In this document: positions 9,124 through 36,897 of the stretch, in pieces
How positions within the stretch are numbered: position 1 is the first letter of the stretch
How the letters are laid out: the number at the start of each line of letters is the position of its first letter
NCBI RefSeq assembly: GCF_000969905.1
Contig: NZ_CP009520.1
Location: 3,286,001-3,350,000 of the forward strand
Source: Methanosarcina vacuolata Z-761
GTDB taxonomy: Archaea; Halobacteriota; Methanosarcinia; Methanosarcinales; Methanosarcinaceae
Direction: 5' to 3'
DNA: 64,000 bases
Notes under the pieces: model-generated
Told to the model about the DNA's origin: nothing
What the model saw: only the letters and a program-made list of their open reading frames with translations
Databases searched by the model: none
Program-made: the position numbers and the translations under genes

Positions 9124-10239
9124 ATGATAAAAGCAGGTATAACAAATCTAAGGAGAATCAGCACAAAATTCATTTATCTTGTTTTCCTGACTGCCCTTGT
9201 TCTTTCCCTTGGATCTGTTCCAGGAATGGCAGCTGAAAATTGTAACTCGAACTTGATGGGTCAAGTCTTTGCTGCAGCCGAAGCAGATCTCGGAGCTATT
9301 GGACCAGAAAACACACTTATTATTACAGATATAGGCTCTCCTGAAGAGTCCTATGTTTTCCTAGATGATTTCTACTCAGAGTTTTATAACAGAGACCTTC
9401 TGTACACAAAAAATCTCCTTGTTGTCCAGAACTCAAGGAATAGTCCCCTATGGTTTGCATTTTTCAATAAATGCAGCGGGAAGTGCACTTATATCGAGGT
9501 CTCCGATGAAAACGAAAGTAAAATTAGCTACAAGGTAACGGAAAACATAGACTTTGATAAACTTTCGAAAACCAATAAATCGAGAGATGCGTGGAGTGAA
9601 AAAGTAAACAATTCGGTATTTGACGGGCGTGAGTTTGCTATTCTTTCAATTTCGAACGCCTGGGCTACAGGGAAGCTTGATTATGAACTTATGCAGTGCC
9701 TGGAACTGCACAATCATTTCTGTCCAGGAGTTTCAAGCGGTTATGTGCTTGCAGGCTGGATGGAAGAAAACTACCCGCTTAAGGAAGGCGTGAGTTATAC
9801 GGTTTTCTCCTGCCCTAACTGGTGCAAAGACGATGTTTTCGTAAAGCGCTGGGATGTGACTCCAGGAACAGGAGGTATCTGGGTCTCTAAATTAACAGAT
9901 AACGAAACCGAAGCTCTAGGTGGTTCTCCTGCAGGTATTTTCGTAGTCAAGGATAAAAATGCCGGAACTATGAAAGCAGTAGTCCTCGGGTTTGACTTTG
10001 ACGTTGTCGATGCGAACAGTGGTGCAAAAGACGATGATCCAGGATGGGTCTCGAAATATTTAGCTGATCTCTGGCTTATGGATAAAGAAAATTGGGACAC
10101 AAAAGGACTTGTCTCGGTAATTTCAGTGAAGGATATTGATGCCGATACCCTGAGCGAAATGGAGCTAGCAGACAATAATCCTTATGTGGTTCTCGGACTG
10201 CTTAATTCGACAGAGAGTACTCAGCCCTCGGAAAACTGA
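9124..10239 (+). CDS. Secreted FmdE-domain protein
   Basis: The 371 residues begin with a signal peptide (about 1-35, with KFIYLVFLTALVLSLGSVPG). The second half carries the FmdE hallmark CLELHNHFCPGVSSGYVLAG (His and Cys likely bind a metal) and CPNWCKDDVF. FmdE domains were named after a subunit of formylmethanofuran dehydrogenase but also occur as exported Methanosarcina proteins of unknown role. Metal or small-molecule binding outside the membrane is inference. The ATG at 9124 has GGAG eight bases upstream. The gene stands alone and ends at a strong hairpin terminator. Confidence 0.82.
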   Translation: MIKAGITNLRRISTKFIYLVFLTALVLSLGSVPGMAAENCNSNLMGQVFAAAEADLGAIGPENTLIITDIGSPEESYVFLDDFYSEFYNRDLLYTKNLLVVQNSRNSPLWFAFFNKCSGKCTYIEVSDENESKISYKVTENIDFDKLSKTNKSRDAWSEKVNNSVFDGREFAILSISNAWATGKLDYELMQCLELHNHFCPGVSSGYVLAGWMEENYPLKEGVSYTVFSCPNWCKDDVFVKRWDVTPGTGGIWVSKLTDNETEALGGSPAGIFVVKDKNAGTMKAVVLGFDFDVVDANSGAKDDDPGWVSKYLADLWLMDKENWDTKGLVSVISVKDIDADTLSEMELADNNPYVVLGLLNSTESTQPSEN

Positions 10240-10323
10240 GCTAGTAGAACAGACAATTAAACTAATCTCTAAATAATCTCTAAACCCTAATCTCTAAACC
10301 CACAAAAGTTTAATAAGGTGTGT

Positions 10324-10378
10324 ATGAGGATTCCAGTAATCCTCATATCTGCCTCTTTCTCTTCCTTTTTTATTTTTT
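10324..10378 (+). terminator. Hairpin and T-rich terminator after the FmdE-domain gene
   Basis: ATGAGGATT (10324-10332) pairs perfectly with AATCCTCAT (10338-10346) around a 5-base loop, followed by pyrimidine-rich sequence ending in long T runs. Confidence 0.8.
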
Positions 10379-10493
10379 TCAATTGGCTTTTCCTGAGTTC
10401 ATTTGATCTTCTGTTTGAAATGCATCAACCTTATTTAATATACAATAATCTTTAGTAAATTTAGAAAATTTTAATAAAGAGCAAGCAAATGTT

Positions 10494-10640
10494 ATGCGCA
10501 TGGATGATGACTCTGTTGAAAAATGGCAACAAGCCGACGAAGAAATACGAAAAAATCTGTTACCGGGCGTGAAGATTGTGCGCACGTTACGAGAACATAA
10601 GAACATTATAGGTCGCACCGCTTGGTCACAGGCAGTTTTT
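10494..10640 (+). pseudogene. 5' stub of a WD40-repeat protein gene
   Basis: The first 45 or so codons read as a genuine start: EKWQQADEEIRKNLLPGVK, then VRTLREHKNIIGRTAWS. The last part is the opening strand of a WD40 blade (TLRxHxxxIGRxAWSPDG). The pattern breaks directly after AWS and unrelated sequence follows to the next gene. The frame stays open to 10775, but its later residues do not look like a WD40 domain. It is best seen as the remains of a STAND- or TIR-type WD40 gene cut off at or near insertion of the NACHT gene. Confidence 0.6.
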
Positions 10641-10759
10641 TCATTTTGCTCGTTGGCGGATGAGATTTTTCTTGCTGATAAATACTGTCTAAAGTGCTTT
10701 TATCTTCTCCCTAAGCGAGACAAATACACTAGCAATCAAGATGAAATGAGGACAAATCA

Positions 10760-13700
10760 ATGCCAATTGAATTAACATTTAAACAGATTTGTGAGTTCAT
10801 CAAGAAAGATGATCGCGGGTTGATTGACGACGTGGACAATCTGCTCGGTCTCGCCTTTGCATCTTCGCCTTTGTTTATTGGCGCTGGATCTGTCGCTCTT
10901 CTGCCGCTGATTCCAGTGAAAAACGAAATCGTGAAGATTAGTAAGAGAGTATTTGAGGCACTTAAGTCCAAGGATGACGATGACTACCTTGCTAGGCGCC
11001 AGCGAATGGAGATGGCTTATGGTCTGATCTGTTTCACGGCATTCTTCGATGCTCTTGACCGACAAATTCCGGAACCACTCAGTGAAAGAATCGAATTACT
11101 AAAGAGAAGAAAGATTTCTCGCGAAGAATTCTGGGGTAAGAATTTCTGCCCAGCGGAAGTTTCAACGGATGATCCTACAAATACTATCACAGAAAACTCA
11201 CTGGCAACTTTGACAACGCAGTTTCCTCATCCAGTTGAAACGTTGGATCAGCAGATTAAGCGGAATGCGGAACTTTGGGACAAAATGGCGAAGGATTTCC
11301 GTGAGTTTGTTCAGAATTCGGTATTTTGGAAGGAGGCAAATGAGGAGGAACAAGCTCAAATCCTCACTTGGATCGAGGAGGTTCCACAGGTAGCAGCTGA
11401 GTGTTTCGAGGCTCAATACTTCGAGCTTGTCCGACGTTACGAGGATTTTGCCGTGTGGGCGAATCTACAAGAGCACAAAAATGCTCAAGGTCTTCTCTGC
11501 TCGCTTTCAAAATATGTTCAGCAACAGGCTGCTTTAGAGATGGCCAGTAAGACCACAATAGATATTGGCTTCGAAAGAATGCGTGAAGTAGTTCTAAGTA
11601 TTCCAGAGACCTTAGAAATCAAAAAAGCCACTGAGATTGCCGACGGTCTGAAGCATTATTACGATAAAGAAGTAGTTGAACCGATTGCAGAAGGGGTTGA
11701 ACCGCAAGGAGACAAACCATGTCTCCGCTTCCCCCTTATATGCAACGCTTTCATCCCACAATCTTTTCAAGTACTCCTTTGGGAAAGCAAGCTGAAGAGC
11801 CTGGAGGATGAAGCCACCTGGAAAGGCTTGGAAAGACGAGAAGACTTAGCAGCATTCTTGCTCAGTTATCTCAGTTCGCCATTCAGCACTGAAGCACCGC
11901 TGGTTATTCTTGGACATCCAGGAAGCGGCAAATCCCTGTTGACAAAGGTTCTTTCTGCCCGATTGATGTCGAACCAATATACAATAATTCGTGTTCCTTT
12001 ACGCGAGGTTAATGCAGATGCTCGCGTCACGGAACAGATTGAGGAACGAATTCACCAGGTTACAAGTGACAGCATACGTTGGGCGAAGTTCAGCGGTTCG
12101 TTCAAGAACAGTCCTCCACTTGTGATTCTTGATGGCTATGATGAATTGTTACAGGCTAGCGGCAAAGTTTTTTCGGGATATCTGAAGGACGTGAAGACCT
12201 TCCAGGAAAACGAGACTACGATGGGACGACCCGTTCGTGTGATTGTAACAAGCAGAATCACGCTAATTGACAAGGCAACTATTCCTCTAGGCGCGACAGT
12301 TATTCGCCTCCTCGAGTTTGATAAAAGACAGTGTGATAAATGGATTTCAATTTGGAACCAAGAGAATGCGACCTATTTCAAGGAGACAATGACCAATGAG
12401 TTCGCTCTGCCTATAGAAAACAACGATGGATCAGACAAGATCCTATCACTGGCAAAGCAACCACTCCTTTTGTTGATGCTGGCGCTTTATGATTCAGAAG
12501 ACAACCAGCTCAGAAATAACGATTCGCTTGATCGGACAATTCTTTACGACAACTTGCTTCGTCGATTTGTGAAGAGAGAAAGAACTAAAGATCGAAATTT
12601 CGAAGAACTTGAGGAGTCAGATCAGGAAACGGAGCTAGATTTGGAGATGAAGCGTCTTGGTGTGGCGGCTCTTGGCATGTATAATCGTAGGAAGTTATTT
12701 ATTATTTCTTCCGAACTGAACAAGGATATCGAGTTTTTCGATCTAAAGCGTCCAGTTCCAACCGGTCCCGGAAGGTTATTGACACAGGCTGAGCTATTGT
12801 TAGGGAGCTTCTTTTTTGTTCACAAATCCAAGGCACAAATAAAAGCTGGTGCGTCTGAGAATCACCAAGAAGCATCAGCCTTTGAGTTTCTGCACAACAC
12901 CTTCGGAGAGTTCCTCACTGCTGATTTTATTATTCGGCAGGCGATAACTGAAATCGTACACTTAAAGGTGATGAAAGAGAACGATCTTCACCAAGAGTAC
13001 AACAATCATCTTGATGCAGCCGATGGTCTTTCAAGAGTATGGTTTGCTAGCTTGGTTTACACACCACTGTTCACTCGACCAGTAGTTCTTGAAATGATGC
13101 GTGAATGGATAGGTCATGCGTTAAAACGCAGACATTTGTCGAAGCAAGAATTCCTGTCTTACTTGGATATAATAATTGAATCTCAGATCAAACGGCTTCT
13201 TAACAAAAGGGATTTCCCGTCTATCATGTGGAAGGAAGTGGCCCAGGAAGGGTATCGTACACCTTTCGACGACAAACCACTTTTAGGTCATATTGCTATC
13301 TACAGCATCAACCTTATTCTCTTGCGAATAATCGTTGCTAATGAACCGTTTGTATTCGATGAAAGTCGGATTAACATCCATGAAGACGGCACACGTCCTT
13401 GGGAGCGGCTGACTCACATATGGAGATCATGGTTTTCCTTGGATAACCTTAACGGCATAACTGCTGTTATGCTTTCAAACAGGCTGGAATCTCAAATCAT
13501 GGTGAAGGCTAAAGATAAGTTCCAAATCGCTGAAAGCCAAAATCGATTATATGAATTCCTTAACGTGTCAATTTCTTTTGGAGACAATATTTCAAGTAGT
13601 CTTACGAGTCTCTTATTATTTGAGCCATCAAAGGATAATCAATTGAGTATTGAAGATATTGACCAAAGATTAAAATCCGAAAAGATTGACCTACAGTTCC

Positions 13701-15736
13701 AAATCTCAATGAAACGGATGATCCAGAATGAGACTCACGTAAACTCTGAAAATGCTCAAATATTCGCAAAAGAGGTTGAACAAATATTGGAGATAGCTCT
13801 TAAGGATGATAAGTTAGAAGAGCTTGAATATATCATTCTGAGTCTTTGTCATGTAGCGAGACGACTGAGATTAGAAAATATCGACATAAATATTCCATCG
13901 AGAAAGTTAGCTAGGATTGCCAAGCTGAATCCGCAAGTAGCATATTTACTTTGTCAGCTGGCAAAAGAAGTTCACGATAAATCGTGGACTCGTTTTTTAA
14001 TTAGCGAATTTATTGATGAACTCGACTTTGAGAAACTGAGCAGCTGTAAACCTGAACTAGTGTTGGCCTGGGTGCAACTTCTGAAGGAGGTTAGAGGCGG
14101 GAGACATTTGGTGTGGTTTAAACCTAAGCTTCTAGAGCGAGTGTTTTACCCCCTAGACTTTTTGAAACTTAGCAAGCAGAACTCTGAAGTAGCGTTGGCT
14201 TGGGTGCAACTGGTGAAGGAGATTGAACTCGAAAGCCTCCTGCAGCAGATGGATACTGAGTTTTTAGAGCGCGCGTTTAATCCTAGCGATTTTCTGGAAC
14301 TTAGCAAGCAGAATCCTGAAGTAGCGTTGGCTTGGGTGCAATTGGTGAAACAAATGAGAACAGTGAACTTCCTGCAGCAGATGGATACTGAGTTTTTAGA
14401 GCGCGCGTTTAATCCTAGCGATTTTCTGGAACTTAGCAAGCGGAATCCTGAAGTAGCGTTGGCTTGGGTGCAACTTTCGAAGGAGGTTGGAGGAGAAGTC
14501 TTTCTGCGGTGGATAGATCTAAAGTTTTTCGAGCAAGTATTTGACTTATATCGTTTTTTAAGACTTAGTAAGCAGAACCTTAAAGTAGCTTTGGCTTGGG
14601 TGCAACTTGTGAAGGAGGTTAGAGGAGAAGTCTTCCTGCAGCAGATGGATACTGAGTTTTTAAAGAAAGTATTTGTAGAACAAATATTTGACTTCCCACG
14701 TATTCTGAAACTGAATTGGCAGAATATTAGAGTTGTCTTAGCCTGGGTACAACTTATGAAGGAGATTGGAGGAGCGAGCTTCCTGCAGCAGATGGATACT
14801 GAGTTTTTAGAGCGCACGTTTAATTCCCGCTACTTTTTAGAACTGAGCAGGCAGAACCCTGAAGTAGCACTGGCCTTGATACAAATTGTGAAGGAGATCG
14901 GAGGCGTGAGCTTCCTACAGCAAATGGATACTGAGTTTTTCAAGCGAGTGTTTGAATCCAGAGATTTTATAGAACTGAAAATGTGGAACCCTAAAGTAAT
15001 GATGGCCTGGGTACAACTTGCTAAGGAGATTGGAGGAGAAGTCTTCCTGCAGGAGATAGATATTGAGTTTTTAGAGCGAGGGTTTGATCGAAACTTTTTG
15101 GAAATGAGCATTCAGAGCCCCAAAGCTGCACTGACCTGGATGCAATTTATTAAGGAGGTAAGAGGCGAAAACTTCCTGCAGCATATAGATCCTAAGTTTT
15201 TCTCGATGGCGTTTAATCCACTTAACCTGTTGGAAATTAGCAAATGGAAACCTGAAGAGGTGCTGGTCTGGGTGCAATTTATGAAAGATGTTGCAAAAGA
15301 AGTCTCACTGCAAAGGATGGATCTAAATGTTTTCGAGAGAGCATTTAATCCATTCTACCTGTTGGAAGTTGACAAACAGAACCCCGAAGTGGCGCTTATC
15401 TGGATTCAACTTGCAGTGGATATTGGGTGCGAAAGCTTTCTTAAACAGCATGGTGAAGAAATTATTGATCAGTGGTCTAGCATGTTTAGCTCTGTGCAGA
15501 TTTTCCGACAAAAGTCGACTCCCTTTTCAGCCCCGTTAAGATTGGCACGTATCATAGAGTCACCGAATGCAATCGAAAAGGTTCTTAGATGCTTGGTTTC
15601 TTCATTAAATCCGTCCGAAAGAGAGCAAGTATCTCTCGGGACACTACCATTGGTATCCCTCAGCGACCTTAAATGGCTCGCGAAAGAAACTGGAAGTCCT
15701 GAAATTAATTCGGCCTTGAGCCGTATTCTTAAATAA
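10760..15736 (+). CDS. Large NACHT-type STAND NTPase with an array of 44-residue C-terminal repeats
   Basis: The 1658 residues have three parts. Residues 1-300 are helical, with AYGLICFTAFFDALDR near 92, resembling the helical N-terminal domains found before NACHT modules; no nuclease, TIR or protease motif is visible. Residues about 375-740 form the NACHT core: Walker A GHPGSGKS (about 385-392), Walker B LVILDGYDE (about 454-462), VTSR, and FEFLHNTFGEFLTADFI. Residues about 1095-1575 hold about eleven repeats with PEVALAWVQLVKEI and LQQMDTEFLERAF cores, probably helical hairpins acting as a ligand sensor. GAGG upstream of the ATG supports the start. Bacterial and archaeal NACHT proteins of this size often serve in antiviral defence; that role here is inference. 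Dispersed 3' repeats suggest fast sensor evolution. Confidence 0.85.
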   Translation: MPIELTFKQICEFIKKDDRGLIDDVDNLLGLAFASSPLFIGAGSVALLPLIPVKNEIVKISKRVFEALKSKDDDDYLARRQRMEMAYGLICFTAFFDALDRQIPEPLSERIELLKRRKISREEFWGKNFCPAEVSTDDPTNTITENSLATLTTQFPHPVETLDQQIKRNAELWDKMAKDFREFVQNSVFWKEANEEEQAQILTWIEEVPQVAAECFEAQYFELVRRYEDFAVWANLQEHKNAQGLLCSLSKYVQQQAALEMASKTTIDIGFERMREVVLSIPETLEIKKATEIADGLKHYYDKEVVEPIAEGVEPQGDKPCLRFPLICNAFIPQSFQVLLWESKLKSLEDEATWKGLERREDLAAFLLSYLSSPFSTEAPLVILGHPGSGKSLLTKVLSARLMSNQYTIIRVPLREVNADARVTEQIEERIHQVTSDSIRWAKFSGSFKNSPPLVILDGYDELLQASGKVFSGYLKDVKTFQENETTMGRPVRVIVTSRITLIDKATIPLGATVIRLLEFDKRQCDKWISIWNQENATYFKETMTNEFALPIENNDGSDKILSLAKQPLLLLMLALYDSEDNQLRNNDSLDRTILYDNLLRRFVKRERTKDRNFEELEESDQETELDLEMKRLGVAALGMYNRRKLFIISSELNKDIEFFDLKRPVPTGPGRLLTQAELLLGSFFFVHKSKAQIKAGASENHQEASAFEFLHNTFGEFLTADFIIRQAITEIVHLKVMKENDLHQEYNNHLDAADGLSRVWFASLVYTPLFTRPVVLEMMREWIGHALKRRHLSKQEFLSYLDIIIESQIKRLLNKRDFPSIMWKEVAQEGYRTPFDDKPLLGHIAIYSINLILLRIIVANEPFVFDESRINIHEDGTRPWERLTHIWRSWFSLDNLNGITAVMLSNRLESQIMVKAKDKFQIAESQNRLYEFLNVSISFGDNISSSLTSLLLFEPSKDNQLSIEDIDQRLKSEKIDLQFQISMKRMIQNETHVNSENAQIFAKEVEQILEIALKDDKLEELEYIILSLCHVARRLRLENIDINIPSRKLARIAKLNPQVAYLLCQLAKEVHDKSWTRFLISEFIDELDFEKLSSCKPELVLAWVQLLKEVRGGRHLVWFKPKLLERVFYPLDFLKLSKQNSEVALAWVQLVKEIELESLLQQMDTEFLERAFNPSDFLELSKQNPEVALAWVQLVKQMRTVNFLQQMDTEFLERAFNPSDFLELSKRNPEVALAWVQLSKEVGGEVFLRWIDLKFFEQVFDLYRFLRLSKQNLKVALAWVQLVKEVRGEVFLQQMDTEFLKKVFVEQIFDFPRILKLNWQNIRVVLAWVQLMKEIGGASFLQQMDTEFLERTFNSRYFLELSRQNPEVALALIQIVKEIGGVSFLQQMDTEFFKRVFESRDFIELKMWNPKVMMAWVQLAKEIGGEVFLQEIDIEFLERGFDRNFLEMSIQSPKAALTWMQFIKEVRGENFLQHIDPKFFSMAFNPLNLLEISKWKPEEVLVWVQFMKDVAKEVSLQRMDLNVFERAFNPFYLLEVDKQNPEVALIWIQLAVDIGCESFLKQHGEEIIDQWSSMFSSVQIFRQKSTPFSAPLRLARIIESPNAIEKVLRCLVSSLNPSEREQVSLGTLPLVSLSDLKWLAKETGSPEINSALSRILK
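14051..15476 (+). repeat. About eleven tandem 132-bp repeats in the NACHT gene
   Basis: The period is 132 bp (44 codons), with one longer unit near 14660-14700. Two neighbouring units share about 100 identical bases starting at CTGCAGCAG in 14240 and 14372, while others have diverged strongly. This mixture points to recent unit duplication or conversion within an old array. Confidence 0.9.
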
Positions 15737-16240
15737 ATTACATAGCTTCGCCTTGACTAAAGGACCCAAAGTTCACCATCTTAGGGCTCGTAACGAAATA
15801 ACCTAATTAACACATTATTATTTTGGAGCAAAATCGATGGGACTGCTTATGAAAATGGCAAAGTACAGTGTAAAAATGGGCTTAGGTTATTTCGCGGTGG
15901 GTACTTAGCAAGGTTCTAGCGGTCTCACCTTCATGGGCCTGTTCAGATTCTTCATTCCATACTTGCTGCGTGTCTGGGTCAGCCTCCATAAGACACTGAC
16001 TCTTATCCTTGTAGGATAAATCGGCTGCGGGTATATAGAAGCCTTTGGACATGATGTATGATCCCAAAATTATATCAAGTACTTTGAAGTTTCCCTAAAA
16101 TTGGTTTGTCCTGTAGCTCCTTCGCCTTTGCATTTTTTACTCTGCTGCCTGAAAACAATTCACTTAAAGCACGATAGAATAATATTCTCTGGAATACTAC
16201 TTACAGGAAATACCGCAACAGCCAAAAAAGAGATAATACC
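15737..16240. other. Intergenic region with a 13-bp inverted repeat pair
   Basis: CGAAATAACCTAA (15794-15806) and its exact inverse (15882-15894) bound a 101-bp stretch. No target duplication is seen. A 23-codon frame (15837-15908, MGLLMKMAKYSVKMGLGYF, GGAG upstream) runs through the right repeat, and a minus-strand frame ending at 15882 (about 56 codons from an ATG at 16052) stops inside it. Both are too short to call. The hpt promoter should lie near 16180-16230. Confidence 0.5.
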
Positions 16241-16813
16241 ATGCTTGAAAAACTGAAAACCTCACTAATTAATTCTCCTGTGATCAAGCGAGGAGAATAC
16301 AATTACTTTATCCATCCAATCTCTGATGGTGTACCGTCCATAGACCCCCATATGGTTGAAGAGATCGCCGAATATATTCTTCAGATTACCGACATCAAAA
16401 AAGTTGATACTATTCTTACCATAGAGGCTATGGGTATTCCTGTAGCAAATGCCCTTTCTCTGAAAACGGGAATTCCTTTGACCATTGTTCGAAAGCGGCC
16501 TTATTTCCTTGAAGGAGAAGTGGAACTTTCTCAGAGTACAGGGTACTCGAAAGGAGCTCTCTACATAAACGGGCTCAAGAAAGGGGACAGAGTAATTATC
16601 GTGGACGACGTCATCAGTACTGGCGGAACGCTGATAGCACTCGTAAAAGCCCTGAAGACTATGGGTGTAGAGATTCTGGACGTAATTTCCGTTATCGGCA
16701 GAGGGAATGGCTATTTGCAATTAAAGGAGCTCGGGGTTGAGCCTAAAATCCTCGTTACGATCGACGTGAGCGAGAAAGGTGTGGAGATCAAGAATGTCTT
16801 TGGGAACGAGTAA
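16241..16813 (+). CDS. hpt: Archaeal hypoxanthine/guanine phosphoribosyltransferase
   Basis: The 190 residues include the PRPP-binding loop [13 protein letters not shown] and [18 protein letters not shown], the pattern of the archaeal Hpt family, which is closer in sequence to adenine PRTases than to bacterial HPRT. The enzyme salvages hypoxanthine and guanine to IMP and GMP in the cytosol. Its end overlaps the start of dph2 by 20 bp, so the two are likely co-transcribed and translationally coupled. Confidence 0.9.
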
Positions 16814-27660: not shown

Positions 27661-29142
27661 TTATTCTCCACTTTCCAATTCCTGGTAAATACTGCTGAAC
27701 TGTTCCAGCGCCGATTGAAGATTCTCAACGAGTTCGGCTGCGATCATGTCAGGCTCTGGAAGATTTTCGGAGTCTTCAAGGCTTTCGTCTTTGAGCCAGA
27801 AAATGTCGAGATTGACTTTATCCCGTTGAATGAGTTCGTCGTAAGTGAAACAGCAGAAGCGTTCGGCTTCAGTTCTGGAATTTATATCTTCAGGGTTGTA
27901 ACATTTGATGAAGTCTTCGAGGTCTTCATAGCGGAGTGGATTTGTTTTGAGGGTGAAGTGCATATTGGTTCGAAGATCGTAGATCCAGAGCTTATCGGTC
28001 CAGGGTTCACTTCTGCCGGGCCGGTTGTCAAAAAAGAGCACGTTTGCTTTTACGCCCTGAGCATAGAAAACCCCTGTTGGGAGGCGCAGCAGGGTGTGGA
28101 CATTACAATCCTGAAGCAGCCGTTTTCTCACGAGTTCTCCAGCTCCTCCTTCAAAGAGCACGTTGTCTGGAAGCACGATTGCAGCTTTTCCTGTGACCTT
28201 CAGGAGGGTTCTAACGTGCTGGAGGAAATTGAGCTGCTTGTTTGAGGTCGTTGCAACAAAATCATCCCGCTCATAAGTCAAGGATTCTTTTTCAGCTTTC
28301 CCTCCGCCGTTTACAATTGTGATGCTGCTTTTCTTCCCGAAAGGCGGATTTGTCAGGATGTAGTCAAAACGCTCGCCCGGATCTGAGATCAGGCTGTCTC
28401 CAACGGTTATGGGACTCTCTTTTCCGCCTATGCCGTGAAGGAAAAGATTCATTACACAGAGTCGGGCTGTGTTATCAACGATCTCCCAACCCCGGAAAGT
28501 TTTTTTTCTCAGGAAATTTTTCTGGTCCCGGTCTAGCGGATTTCTCCTGTATTTTTCCGGGCTTCCAATGTAGTCGTGTGCAGCAAGGAAAAAACCACCT
28601 GTTCCACATGCAGGATCGCAGATTGTCTTTTCCGGCTCAGGCTGCAGTACGGCAACCATTGCTTTGATGAGCTGCCTGGGCGTGAAGTACTGGCCTGCTC
28701 CGCTTTTGGTGTCCTCGGCATTTTTCTCAAGCAGTCCTTCGTAGATCTCGCCTTTGACATCCATATCCATCCCTGTCCACCTTTCGCCGTTGATAAGCTC
28801 AATAAGCCGTTTCAGCTTCGCCGGGTCCTGGACTTTATTCTGGGATTTCCTGAAAATGACCCCGAGCATCCCTTCTTCTTTTGCCAGGGTTTCAAGGATA
28901 TGCCTGTAATGGATTTCAAGCTCGTCCCCATCTTTTGTGACCAGGCTTTTCCAGTCATACCCTTCAGGAATGGTGAAAGCTGAAGTTCTCGCAAAAGGTG
29001 AACTTGCCTTTTCCTCAGCCATTTTCAAAAAGAGTAAATAAGTAAGCTGCTCAACGTAATCTCCGTAACTTATCCCGTCGTCCCGCAGCACATTGCAGTA
29101 ATTCCACAGCCTCTGCACGATTGTTGAAGATTCACTTGCCAT
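27661..29142 (-). CDS. hsdM: Type I restriction-modification DNA methyltransferase subunit
   Basis: The 493 residues have the HsdM N-terminal helical domain (SYGDYVEQLTYLLFLKMAEE) and a SAM-dependent N6-adenine methylase core: QYFTPRQLIKAMVAVLQP, DPACGTGGFFLAAHDYI (about 177-193) and NPPFGKKS (about 263-270). Two HsdM with one HsdS methylate the recognition site. The ATG directly follows the hsdS stop (TAAATG), so the pair is co-translated. Confidence 0.96.
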   Translation of the reverse strand: MASESSTIVQRLWNYCNVLRDDGISYGDYVEQLTYLLFLKMAEEKASSPFARTSAFTIPEGYDWKSLVTKDGDELEIHYRHILETLAKEEGMLGVIFRKSQNKVQDPAKLKRLIELINGERWTGMDMDVKGEIYEGLLEKNAEDTKSGAGQYFTPRQLIKAMVAVLQPEPEKTICDPACGTGGFFLAAHDYIGSPEKYRRNPLDRDQKNFLRKKTFRGWEIVDNTARLCVMNLFLHGIGGKESPITVGDSLISDPGERFDYILTNPPFGKKSSITIVNGGGKAEKESLTYERDDFVATTSNKQLNFLQHVRTLLKVTGKAAIVLPDNVLFEGGAGELVRKRLLQDCNVHTLLRLPTGVFYAQGVKANVLFFDNRPGRSEPWTDKLWIYDLRTNMHFTLKTNPLRYEDLEDFIKCYNPEDINSRTEAERFCCFTYDELIQRDKVNLDIFWLKDESLEDSENLPEPDMIAAELVENLQSALEQFSSIYQELESGE

Positions 29143-33617: not shown

Positions 33618-34112
33618 ATGGCACAAAGAGGACAAAGATCGGATGAAATAGTTAGAATTGTTGAAAAAGAATTAGCAAATGAATTTTCAAACCAATTATC
33701 AAGGAAATTTGAGGAGTGGATGAATGATTTTTCTATTAATATGGACAACCATTTAGAGGAATTTGGAAATAAAATAAACGAATTATCTGATAAAATAACC
33801 TCACTGGAAAATAAAATATTTGATGAGCGCCTTAAAAGCAATATAGATTTAAGACTAGGAGGACCTAGATTAGAAGGATATGGCATGGACTTCGGATTGG
33901 GACGTTTCAGACTAGAAGGTCATATGGTACGAGAAGCTGATGAGTTTACTGCCACTTGTGTCGAACCTCCTAAAGGATTCATTTACTTGGTTCCGATACA
34001 AGACACTTTTGAAACACTAATAGTTGATAGTGAGAATTTATTGAAAAGAGGAGAGAATCTATTAGATAAAAATCGCTTTATCCAGTCAACACTTCACTCA
34101 ACTCCTCCATAA
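33618..34112 (+). CDS. Coiled-coil protein, partner of the preceding membrane protein
   Basis: About 164 residues. The ATG at 33618 fits the GAGGGTG just upstream better than the GTG at 33612. Residues about 5-80 are strongly helical and charged (NEFSNQLSRKFEEWMNDFS, NKINELSDKITSLENKIFDE), a likely coiled coil. After a Gly/Arg-rich link comes a mixed region (FIYLVPIQDTFETLIVDSE). Its 3' end overlaps that of hsdR by 35 bp, tail to tail. No function is known; the operon layout suggests the two products act together at the membrane. Confidence 0.7.
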   Translation: MAQRGQRSDEIVRIVEKELANEFSNQLSRKFEEWMNDFSINMDNHLEEFGNKINELSDKITSLENKIFDERLKSNIDLRLGGPRLEGYGMDFGLGRFRLEGHMVREADEFTATCVEPPKGFIYLVPIQDTFETLIVDSENLLKRGENLLDKNRFIQSTLHSTPP

Positions 34113-36897
34113 TCCCCACTAGATCCTCCCCAAATAACTCATAAGCTTTAAACGCCCCTCCTTTCCTGTTAAACGGCACATTCTCAAAGTCCTCAACCTC
34201 GATATCCAGCGAGGACGCAATATGGTCCTTGATCATTCTGAGCCACTCTTTCTGTTCTTCTGAAAAGGTTCTGCCCGAAGCTTCCTGAGCTGATAGCCAT
34301 TTTTCAAACCTTGATTCAACTGTATCCGGAAAAGGTTCGAGAATATCGGATTCTCCGAGTTCGAAGCGAAGGATGGAAACTATATTGGTAAGGAGTTTTC
34401 CCGGAGTTGCCTGTTTGACTTTTGACAGGTCGAGGGCTTCGTAGGCTTGCCAGAGTTTTTCCGGGGTCAGGTAGTAGGGAGGCTTTTCTATGGATTCGGC
34501 AAGCTGTTTGATTGCACGGTATGTGAGGTGCCTTTTTCCGTAAGGGGTGTTGTAGATTATCTGAAGGGCTGTAAGTTCGTCTTTGTTTTCTTCAATGAAT
34601 TTGTGGAAGTTTTCTATGGTTTTTTGGGCTTTTTCTTTTGCATCGGCGTCAAAACCTGCGTAAAGAACTCGATCTTCGCTTACCGTGTCTATTACCTGTT
34701 CGTTTTTGCGGTGCAGGTCAATGAGGAGGTTTCGAAGAGTTGGAGAATCAAAAGGAGCACAGGCTTCAGAGGCGAGGATTTCTCTGGCTTTTTCCAGCTG
34801 GACGGACGAAGGAGAATCAGTATTGAAGAGGATTTTTGCTTTTGCTTCCTGAACATCCGGGTCAACAGCGTCAAGGAGAGCATTTGTAAGGACGCTCAGA
34901 GACTTGCCGCCTGACTCATTTTCGATCTTTTCCCGGTCGTAGGAAGTGATTTCTCGGTCGAGGCGGGCCAGGCGGCCAGCAAGGGTTGTTAGGGTATCTT
35001 CATCCCGGCTGCCAAAAGCGACCTGTATCAGAATTTTGTCAAAAGGAACGGTCTTTTTTCTTTCAAGGGGACGGGAATCGGTCTTATCGCTCTCGCAGAT
35101 CCCTACTGCATCCACGATTATAAAATGGGTCTTTCCTTTCGTGCAATCTGGACTTATTTCCTTCATATCATCCAGGTTTATCGTGCGGGTGCCTCTTCCT
35201 TTCATCTGCTCAAAATAAACGCTTGAACGGACGTCCCTCATGAAGAGAACGCATTCAAGGGGTTTTATGTCCGTCCCTGTGGAGATCATATCCACGGTTA
35301 CGACAATACGCGGATAATACTTATTCCTGAAATACTTGATCAGGGTTTTCGGGTCTTCTCCAGTGACCCTGTAAGTGATTTTCTTGCAAAAATCGTTGCC
35401 TTTTCCAAATTCTTCCCTTATAATCTCAACAATATCTTCAGCATGAGAGTCGTCCTTTGCAAAAATCAGGGTTTTTGGAACTTCGGATCTGCCTGGGAAT
35501 ATTTCAGTAAAGAGTTTTTCCTTAAATGTTCTTATTACGGTTCTTATCTGGTCTTTTGAGACAACCGAGTGGTCAAGCTTCTTTTCGTCGTAGGAAAACT
35601 CGTCATCAAGTTGTTCCCACCTGATCTTTCTCGTAAGTTTATCCCGTTTGTCTATATAAAAGCCGGCTTCAACCTTGCTACCTTTTTCCGTAATTTCAGT
35701 TTTTATTCTGTAGACTTCATAACCTACGTTTACACCGTCTGCGACGGCTCTTTCATGTGAATATTCCATGACAAGGTTCTTATTAAAAAAACCTAATGTT
35801 TGATTTGATGGCGTTGCAGTCAACCCAATGATAAAGGCATCGAAATACTCAAGCACCTGCCTCCATAGGTGATAGATTGATCGGTGGCATTCGTCAGTTA
35901 CAATGAAATCAAAATACTCAATAGGGATGTCAGGGTTGTAATCGATTGTTCTTTCCTTTTTTGCCTCTTCTGATTCCTTTCCCGCTTCTTTCCCTGAAAA
36001 GTCTGCCCAGCGATCAAAAGCCGATTCTTCCTCAAGTTCCGGATCCAATTCTTTTTCTCCTTTGAGCATTGAATACAGGCGTTGAATCGTAGTGATGCAT
36101 ACTTTGCAAACAGGGTCTAGGCTGTTTGATTTCAGGTGCTGTACGTTGTATACTTTTGTAAACAACCGCCCATCACCAGGAATTGGATAGCTATCAAACT
36201 CCCGCAACGTTTGCTCTCCAAGGTTATTTCTGTCAACCAGAAAGAGCACTCTTTTTGCTTTTGAAAACTTGATCAGCCTGTTAATAAAACTCACAGCGGT
36301 ATACGTTTTTCCACTGCCTGTCGCCATCTGTATCAAGGATCTTGGACGGTTGTCTGCCAGTGATTTCTCAAGGTTTTGAATTGCTTCATACTGGCAATCC
36401 CACAGTTTTTGCCTATCCAGCGGAACTAGCTGTGAAGTTTTAATAAGTCTACTTCTCAGTGTATCTTTTTCCTCAATCAATCCTTTAAGGGTTTCTGGTC
36501 TATGAAACGAAAAAACTCTGCGAGAACGAGCATCAGGATCTCTCCGGTCTCTGAAGTTTGTCTCATCGCCTGTGCTTTCATAGCAAAAAGGAAGCGGCTC
36601 ATTTACTGCCAGAAGATCTGCCAAACTGCTTTTTGCATACTTTTCAGACTGTTCGGCAACTCCGCTCAGGGTAAATCCTTTTGGTTTTGCTTCAATAATG
36701 CCTACAGGTCGCCTATCAGCAAAGAGAAGATAATCCGAAAATCCGACTTTCAGGTGGGCTTCCGTGACTGCAACCCCTATACTTTCACTGGGTTTCATTT
36801 CGTATAGATCCTGAACTTTCCAACCTGACAGTTCAAGCATCTTATCGAGATCTTCACGAGCAATTTCTTCGGGCTTTTTGCTACTTTGCAAAACCAT
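34078..36897 (-). CDS. hsdR: Type I restriction-modification restriction subunit
   Basis: The 939 residues have an N-terminal nuclease domain (VGFSDYLLFADRRPVGIIEA then KPKG, about 51-74, a D-ExK-type site) and an SF2 translocase: MATGSGKTYTA (about 191-201), FLVDRNNLGEQTL, TDECHRSIY (about 332) and GLTATPSNQT, followed by STGTDIKPLE and GRGTRT. The C-terminal region would bind the methylase core. HsdR cuts unmethylated DNA after translocation. It is transcribed in the same direction as hsdS and hsdM but separated from them by 3.4 kb of inserted genes and mobile elements, so it needs its own promoter. Confidence 0.96.
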   Translation of the reverse strand: MVLQSSKKPEEIAREDLDKMLELSGWKVQDLYEMKPSESIGVAVTEAHLKVGFSDYLLFADRRPVGIIEAKPKGFTLSGVAEQSEKYAKSSLADLLAVNEPLPFCYESTGDETNFRDRRDPDARSRRVFSFHRPETLKGLIEEKDTLRSRLIKTSQLVPLDRQKLWDCQYEAIQNLEKSLADNRPRSLIQMATGSGKTYTAVSFINRLIKFSKAKRVLFLVDRNNLGEQTLREFDSYPIPGDGRLFTKVYNVQHLKSNSLDPVCKVCITTIQRLYSMLKGEKELDPELEEESAFDRWADFSGKEAGKESEEAKKERTIDYNPDIPIEYFDFIVTDECHRSIYHLWRQVLEYFDAFIIGLTATPSNQTLGFFNKNLVMEYSHERAVADGVNVGYEVYRIKTEITEKGSKVEAGFYIDKRDKLTRKIRWEQLDDEFSYDEKKLDHSVVSKDQIRTVIRTFKEKLFTEIFPGRSEVPKTLIFAKDDSHAEDIVEIIREEFGKGNDFCKKITYRVTGEDPKTLIKYFRNKYYPRIVVTVDMISTGTDIKPLECVLFMRDVRSSVYFEQMKGRGTRTINLDDMKEISPDCTKGKTHFIIVDAVGICESDKTDSRPLERKKTVPFDKILIQVAFGSRDEDTLTTLAGRLARLDREITSYDREKIENESGGKSLSVLTNALLDAVDPDVQEAKAKILFNTDSPSSVQLEKAREILASEACAPFDSPTLRNLLIDLHRKNEQVIDTVSEDRVLYAGFDADAKEKAQKTIENFHKFIEENKDELTALQIIYNTPYGKRHLTYRAIKQLAESIEKPPYYLTPEKLWQAYEALDLSKVKQATPGKLLTNIVSILRFELGESDILEPFPDTVESRFEKWLSAQEASGRTFSEEQKEWLRMIKDHIASSLDIEVEDFENVPFNRKGGAFKAYELFGEDLVGIMEELSEVLTG

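Follow-up and report, generated by a model that had tools for sequence, protein, structure and literature searches.

The window analyzed here, i.e., a 64,000-nt stretch of the Methanosarcina vacuolata Z-761 genome, contains an uninterrupted open reading frame with an ATG start that encodes a large NACHT protein. The start codon is backed by relatives, whose N-terminus reads MSIELTF where the window protein has MPIELTF. A helical N-terminal domain, a NACHT core and a C-terminal repeat array follow one another in a single chain, so that the protein has the layout, and presumably the division of roles, of an effector–NACHT–sensor receptor. A preliminary description of this stretch had proposed a 1658-residue protein with a helical N-terminus, a NACHT core and about eleven repeats, and this architecture was recovered in full. 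The features of the locus are collected in Table 1.

Table 1 Features at the NNH7-NACHT locus (positions are those of the window).
Feature	Position	Strand	Basis
FmdE-like gene, conserved, bordering the variable site on the left	9124–10239	+	Pfam and congener comparison
Truncated WD40-Roc-cyclase gene, 45 codons kept, then unrelated sequence	10494–10775	+	Match to the gene in G022
NNH7-NACHT-repeat gene, 1658 aa	10760–15736	+	ORF with ATG start, domain matches, alignment to relatives
NNH7 (PF22738) N-terminal helical domain, residues 4–238	10769–11473	+	Pfam E = 7.8e-30; all-helical model
Hydrophobic Gly-rich segment in NNH7, about residues 26–52	10835–10915	+	Family composition
STAND core of NACHT type plus the helical part after it, residues about 341–900	11780–13459	+	Alignment to relatives
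Tandem array of 11 units, 44 aa each except for one of 49, one of 43 and a partial last one, residues 1098–1571	14051–15472	+	Repeat HMM, TRF, self-identity
Stretch 103/104 identical to 14370–14473, one unit downstream	14238–14341	+	Base comparison
C-terminal cap after the last repeat unit, residues 1572–1658	15473–15733	+	Sequence and C-terminal structure model
MITE-like dispersed repeat, about 130 bp, with 13-nt inverted repeats (15794–15806 and 15882–15894)	15779–15910	+	Near the 3′ end of the gene
Phosphoribosyltransferase-like gene, conserved, bordering the variable site on the right	16241–16813	+	Congener comparison

Between the FmdE-like and phosphoribosyltransferase-like genes lies an insertion site that varies within Methanosarcina (10240–16240 in the window; also loci L124, L125, and L135). 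The two flanking genes are about 0.35–0.6 kb apart in most of the congeners in which they were located together; the site holds the NNH7-NACHT gene here, a WD40-Roc-cyclase gene in congener G022, a transposase in G029, and in G015 an ORF resembling a transposase, as judged from sequence. The cut-off WD40 gene reported upstream of the NACHT gene is real: its first 45 codons, together with 63 bases upstream, match an intact 1049-aa WD40-Roc-guanylate cyclase gene at the same site in G022, and the truncated ORF (93 aa) shares its last 16 nt with the start of the NACHT gene. Given this match, the NNH7-NACHT gene seems to have taken the place of most of a WD40 gene resident at the site and to stand now behind the start region of that gene, whose promoter it would presumably use. 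Several further features mark the surroundings. The MITE-like element has many diverged copies in several Methanosarcina genomes, with 24 matches each in G013 and G019. In several genomes of the genus, the FmdE-like gene occurs as a tandem duplicate or a fusion, with open frames of about 700 aa (e.g., G028 C2:2263519–2265633). About 12–21 kb downstream, on the minus strand, lie Type I restriction-modification genes (HsdM, 27661–29142; HsdR, 34078–36897).

The NTPase core is recognizable by its motifs rather than by its profile score. Walker A (GHPGSGKS, residues 385–392), Walker B (LVILDGYDE, 454–462), and a third core motif toward the C-terminal side, FEFLHNTFGEFL (the EFLH motif, 709–720), are all kept in an alignment with actinobacterial relatives at about 30% overall identity, and the protein thus combines the Walker A with the D[G/A/S]xDE Walker B used as the STAND criterion. 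The Pfam NACHT profile (PF05729) gave 16.6 bits, a remote match below the gathering score of 26.7, while a Streptomyces relative (L004) reached 25.9 bits. Among PADLOC models, none matched the protein over its full length, the one hit being mad8 on the P-loop (residues 375–416, E 0.0012), and no solved homologue was found by single-sequence search or with the core or repeat profile. Elsewhere in the host genome (G000), six other matches exceed the Pfam NACHT cut-off (e.g., C2:3942855, 3381589, and 3376547), two of them about 5 kb apart.

The N-terminal region belongs to NNH7 (NACHT N-terminal Helical domain 7), with a Pfam score of 105.2 bits against a gathering score of 27; the domain was also found in 7/7 relatives scanned. 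We therefore rejected the idea of an undescribed domain, and with it the earlier proposal of an undescribed type of system. The HMM check suggested in the preliminary description did return a NACHT-associated helical domain, but an already catalogued one. As had been remarked, no enzymatic effector or enzymatic motif could be recognized in the N-terminus. A weak profile match to RNA-free RNase P chains (59 residues, E 6.5e-5) was treated as chance similarity because it falls inside long predicted helices and is without structural support.

The AlphaFold model of the NNH7 region is all-helical (pLDDT 74) and least certain at residues 24–50. Across the family, Gly makes up 15% and charged residues 13% of the hydrophobic Gly-rich segment (elsewhere in the N-terminal region, 5% and 26%), and the segment is kept among close relatives. 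This composition is compatible with membrane insertion, and it is plausible that NNH7 acts at the membrane. Hydropathy by itself was rejected as proof, as a stretch above the 1.6 threshold also occurs somewhere in the NTPase core of 63% of close relatives. The suggestion that the N-terminal helices oligomerize at a membrane is tentative: the conserved segment fits it, but the model is weakest exactly there and no solved fold matches convincingly (Foldseek best E 0.45, VIA best Z 5.0, both too weak to interpret); HeLo/MLKL-type rows were absent from these matches, which does not exclude such folds.

The missing enzymatic motif and the missing fold match would also suit an NNH7 domain that does not kill by itself and serves only for oligomerization or as an adaptor, recruiting a separate, unlinked effector in the style of CARD or death-fold adaptors. 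A caspase-domain gene (Peptidase_C14, 643–1467) lies close upstream of the relative in Sideroxydans (L008) and would be a candidate for such an effector, but it is absent from the other neighbors listed, and no partner gene recurs among the 55 neighbors scanned at the relatives' loci, which favors a single-gene system. With the hydrophobic Gly-rich segment also kept among close relatives, we regard an adaptor role as possible though rather unlikely.

Next to these domain assignments, the distribution of the gene points to a bacterial source. A whole-collection scan returned 520 related stretches in other genomes, and all 79 loci kept were labelled bacterial. Among 393 genomes of the archaeal phylum, the window protein was the only one with NNH7 above the Pfam cut-off, and 59 related genomes, including 30 congeners, yielded no full-length match. 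In the tree, the protein falls in a six-row clade (SH-aLRT 100) whose other five rows are from Pseudomonadota, Nitrospirota, and Chlorobiota (L008, Sideroxydans; L009, Contendobacter; L010, Nitrospirales; L011, Burkholderiales; L012, Chlorobium; with Gallionellaceae and Competibacteraceae among the host groups) and share a 54–60% identical core with it (54–58% over residues 1–920). Transfer from bacteria to a Methanosarcina has strong support, since this is the sole NNH7 gene above the cut-off in 393 genomes, at a site that is empty in most related species and beside the remnant of a WD40 gene; this is in line with the horizontal arrival proposed earlier. Its G+C and codon usage are host-like, with no departure from the neighboring genes, so that either some time has passed since it arrived or the donor resembled the host in composition. 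Carriage by a virus or phage was rejected as neither IMG/VR nor INPHARED contained a relative.

The repeat array was the feature for which rapid change had been claimed. A repeat HMM detected all 11 units, TRF found a 132-nt period over the repeat region (8 copies, 72% match, score 716), and self-identity of the protein was 43% at an offset of 44 residues vs ≤14% at every other offset from 30 to 59. The roughly 100 bases said to be identical between two adjacent repeats amount to 72 identical nt, one mismatch, and 31 identical nt, in register, in units 1142–1185 and 1186–1229. Of the remaining differences between these units, 14/16 fall inside 33 nt, an arrangement equaled in extremity by 0/20,000 random placements. 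This combination suggests a tract of recent duplication or conversion with a boundary, as had been supposed. A diversity-generating retroelement was rejected as the source of repeat variation, the clustered differences not being limited to adenines.

The array is not unique to the window protein, as repeats of this helical family also occur in its five closest bacterial relatives. There, units are mostly 48–50 aa long and 2–6 were detected per protein, these counts being partial for two relatives whose arrays end at a contig end or in Ns. Relative to these units, 9/9 aligned window units are without the same 5–6 residues, in an alignment from which the 49-aa unit is absent and with that unit's extra five residues placed elsewhere in another alignment. 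The window units are also closer to each other (mean identity 49%, about 80% over 44 aa for the best adjacent pair) than to the relatives' units (29–37%). Both observations suggest that the array was probably amplified from a single founder after the lineages separated. In the Nitrospirales relative (L010, 9517–10251), the repeats are 70% identical internally at the amino acid level, with 46–54-nt exact repeats and units up to 86% identical in nucleotides; as each of the two arrays is more alike internally, they were probably re-amplified separately in different lineages.

The structure prediction called for earlier gave an alpha-solenoid in which each unit forms about four short helices (pLDDT 72.5, pTM 0.42). 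Against solved structures (VIA), its best rows were mostly HEAT/ARM proteins, with Z up to 12.4 (305 residues, 6.8 Å), scores that unrelated helical repeats often reach, and the repeat profile had no match among PDB sequences. The array is thus predicted, from the model, to be a HEAT/ARM-like solenoid.

The claim of rapid change holds for the turnover of whole units, which is unusually clear for a protein of this known kind, and comes with no clear diversifying selection: pN/pS between window units was 0.56 overall and reached about 1 or more only within short sliding windows (columns about 14–19 and 22–29), which were picked after the fact from few units and are no test of positive selection. 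Tandem repeats are generally recombinogenic, and this ratio could be read as that of a gene which, once acquired, decays neutrally while its repeats change simply through the instability of tandem DNA. However, all 1658 codons are intact, the NTPase motifs are all kept, and a gene of host-fitting composition without visible decay is hardly what neutrality would leave; we consider such decay very improbable.

Is the protein then part of a defense system? Several points speak against an antiviral reading: the immediate neighborhood consists of housekeeping genes and is no dense defense island, the NACHT Pfam score lies under the cut-off, and PADLOC has no covering model. The first of these would suit a STAND regulator of transcription or metabolism, and STAND proteins include regulators. 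Yet the distribution is patchy, the gene has crossed between domains, its repeats turn over fast, another signaling gene was replaced at the same site, and no DNA-binding domain was found in the protein, so that a purely regulatory function seems improbable. Modest support for a defense role comes from the relatives in L011, L008, and L012, which adjoin PADLOC-listed genes (NERD-UvrD, a pAgo-like match, and PDC-S01). Overall, the initial assignment to STAND/NACHT receptors of the defense type is supported, and we consider it likely that the window gene, obtained by a Methanosarcina from bacteria, encodes an NLR-related (NNH7-NACHT) receptor that acts against viruses as a single-gene system.

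Bacterial NLR-related proteins defend against phages, with a C-terminus that senses, a NACHT module that enables oligomerization, and an N-terminus that acts as the effector (PMC12169576). By analogy with these proteins (PMC12169576), the HEAT/ARM-like solenoid would sense a viral or virus-perturbed protein, ligand binding would release autoinhibition, and the NACHT ATPase would then oligomerize in an ATP-dependent manner, so that clustered NNH7 helical domains could act as the effector, halting the infected cell or killing it. More tentatively, NNH7 might do so by disrupting the membrane via its hydrophobic Gly-rich segment. The antiviral role, the sensing by the array, and the oligomerization are all inferred in this way.

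Comparison with known systems separates what is familiar from what is new. NNH7-NACHT proteins (PF22738), here mostly from Actinomycetota, resemble the window protein in NNH7 and the NTPase core, about 900 residues, with 27–31% identity for those of Streptomyces and Nonomuraea. Most of the actinobacterial group (52 rows) have about 200–350 residues past the core, whereas the window protein has about 770, and its 11 units, mostly of 44 aa, also set it apart from the repeat-bearing bacterial clade L008–L012. bNACHT25 shares the single gene and the tripartite layout of N-terminal effector, NACHT, and C-terminal sensor, but has a PD-(D/E)XK nuclease effector and an NCH1 C-terminus (PMC12169576), neither of which was detected in the window protein. 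In fungi, NLRs with high-internal-conservation (HiC) repeats, e.g., Podospora HET-D/HET-E, carry WD40, ANK, or TPR repeats that exceed 85% identity over at least 100 aa, with positive selection shown (PMC4986451). Sensor repeats are homogenized within one gene in the HET-D/HET-E family, where repeat number varies (PMC4986451), as they are in the window protein, yet the window repeats are HEAT/ARM-like and, at their mean and best-pair identities, fall below the fungal HiC level. The effector–NACHT–sensor layout, the N-terminal family, and NLR repeat turnover in fungi (PMC4986451) were therefore already known, while an archaeal NNH7-NACHT protein that stems from bacteria and carries a re-amplified HEAT/ARM-like array is new as far as the open-licence literature shows. 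A stronger reading would make it a prokaryotic NLR with a HEAT/ARM-like array in concerted evolution, re-amplified from single units after transfer in the manner of fungal HiC-repeat NLRs, and with NNH7 as a self-sufficient, membrane-acting effector, i.e., a bacterial-type gene working in an archaeon; in this complete form we hold it to be unlikely, and offer it as speculation.

Taken together, the locus is a clear instance of the arrival of a bacterial-type NLR in an archaeon; the empty site is seen in relatives, and a remnant of the displaced gene survives. The catalogue entry for NNH7 describes a helical NACHT-associated domain, and as we found neither a reported activity nor an NNH7 protein with demonstrated defense function in the open-licence literature, an assay could assign an activity to it. 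For the concerted evolution of sensor repeats in fungal NLRs, the array itself would provide a counterpart in prokaryotes that is so far partial.
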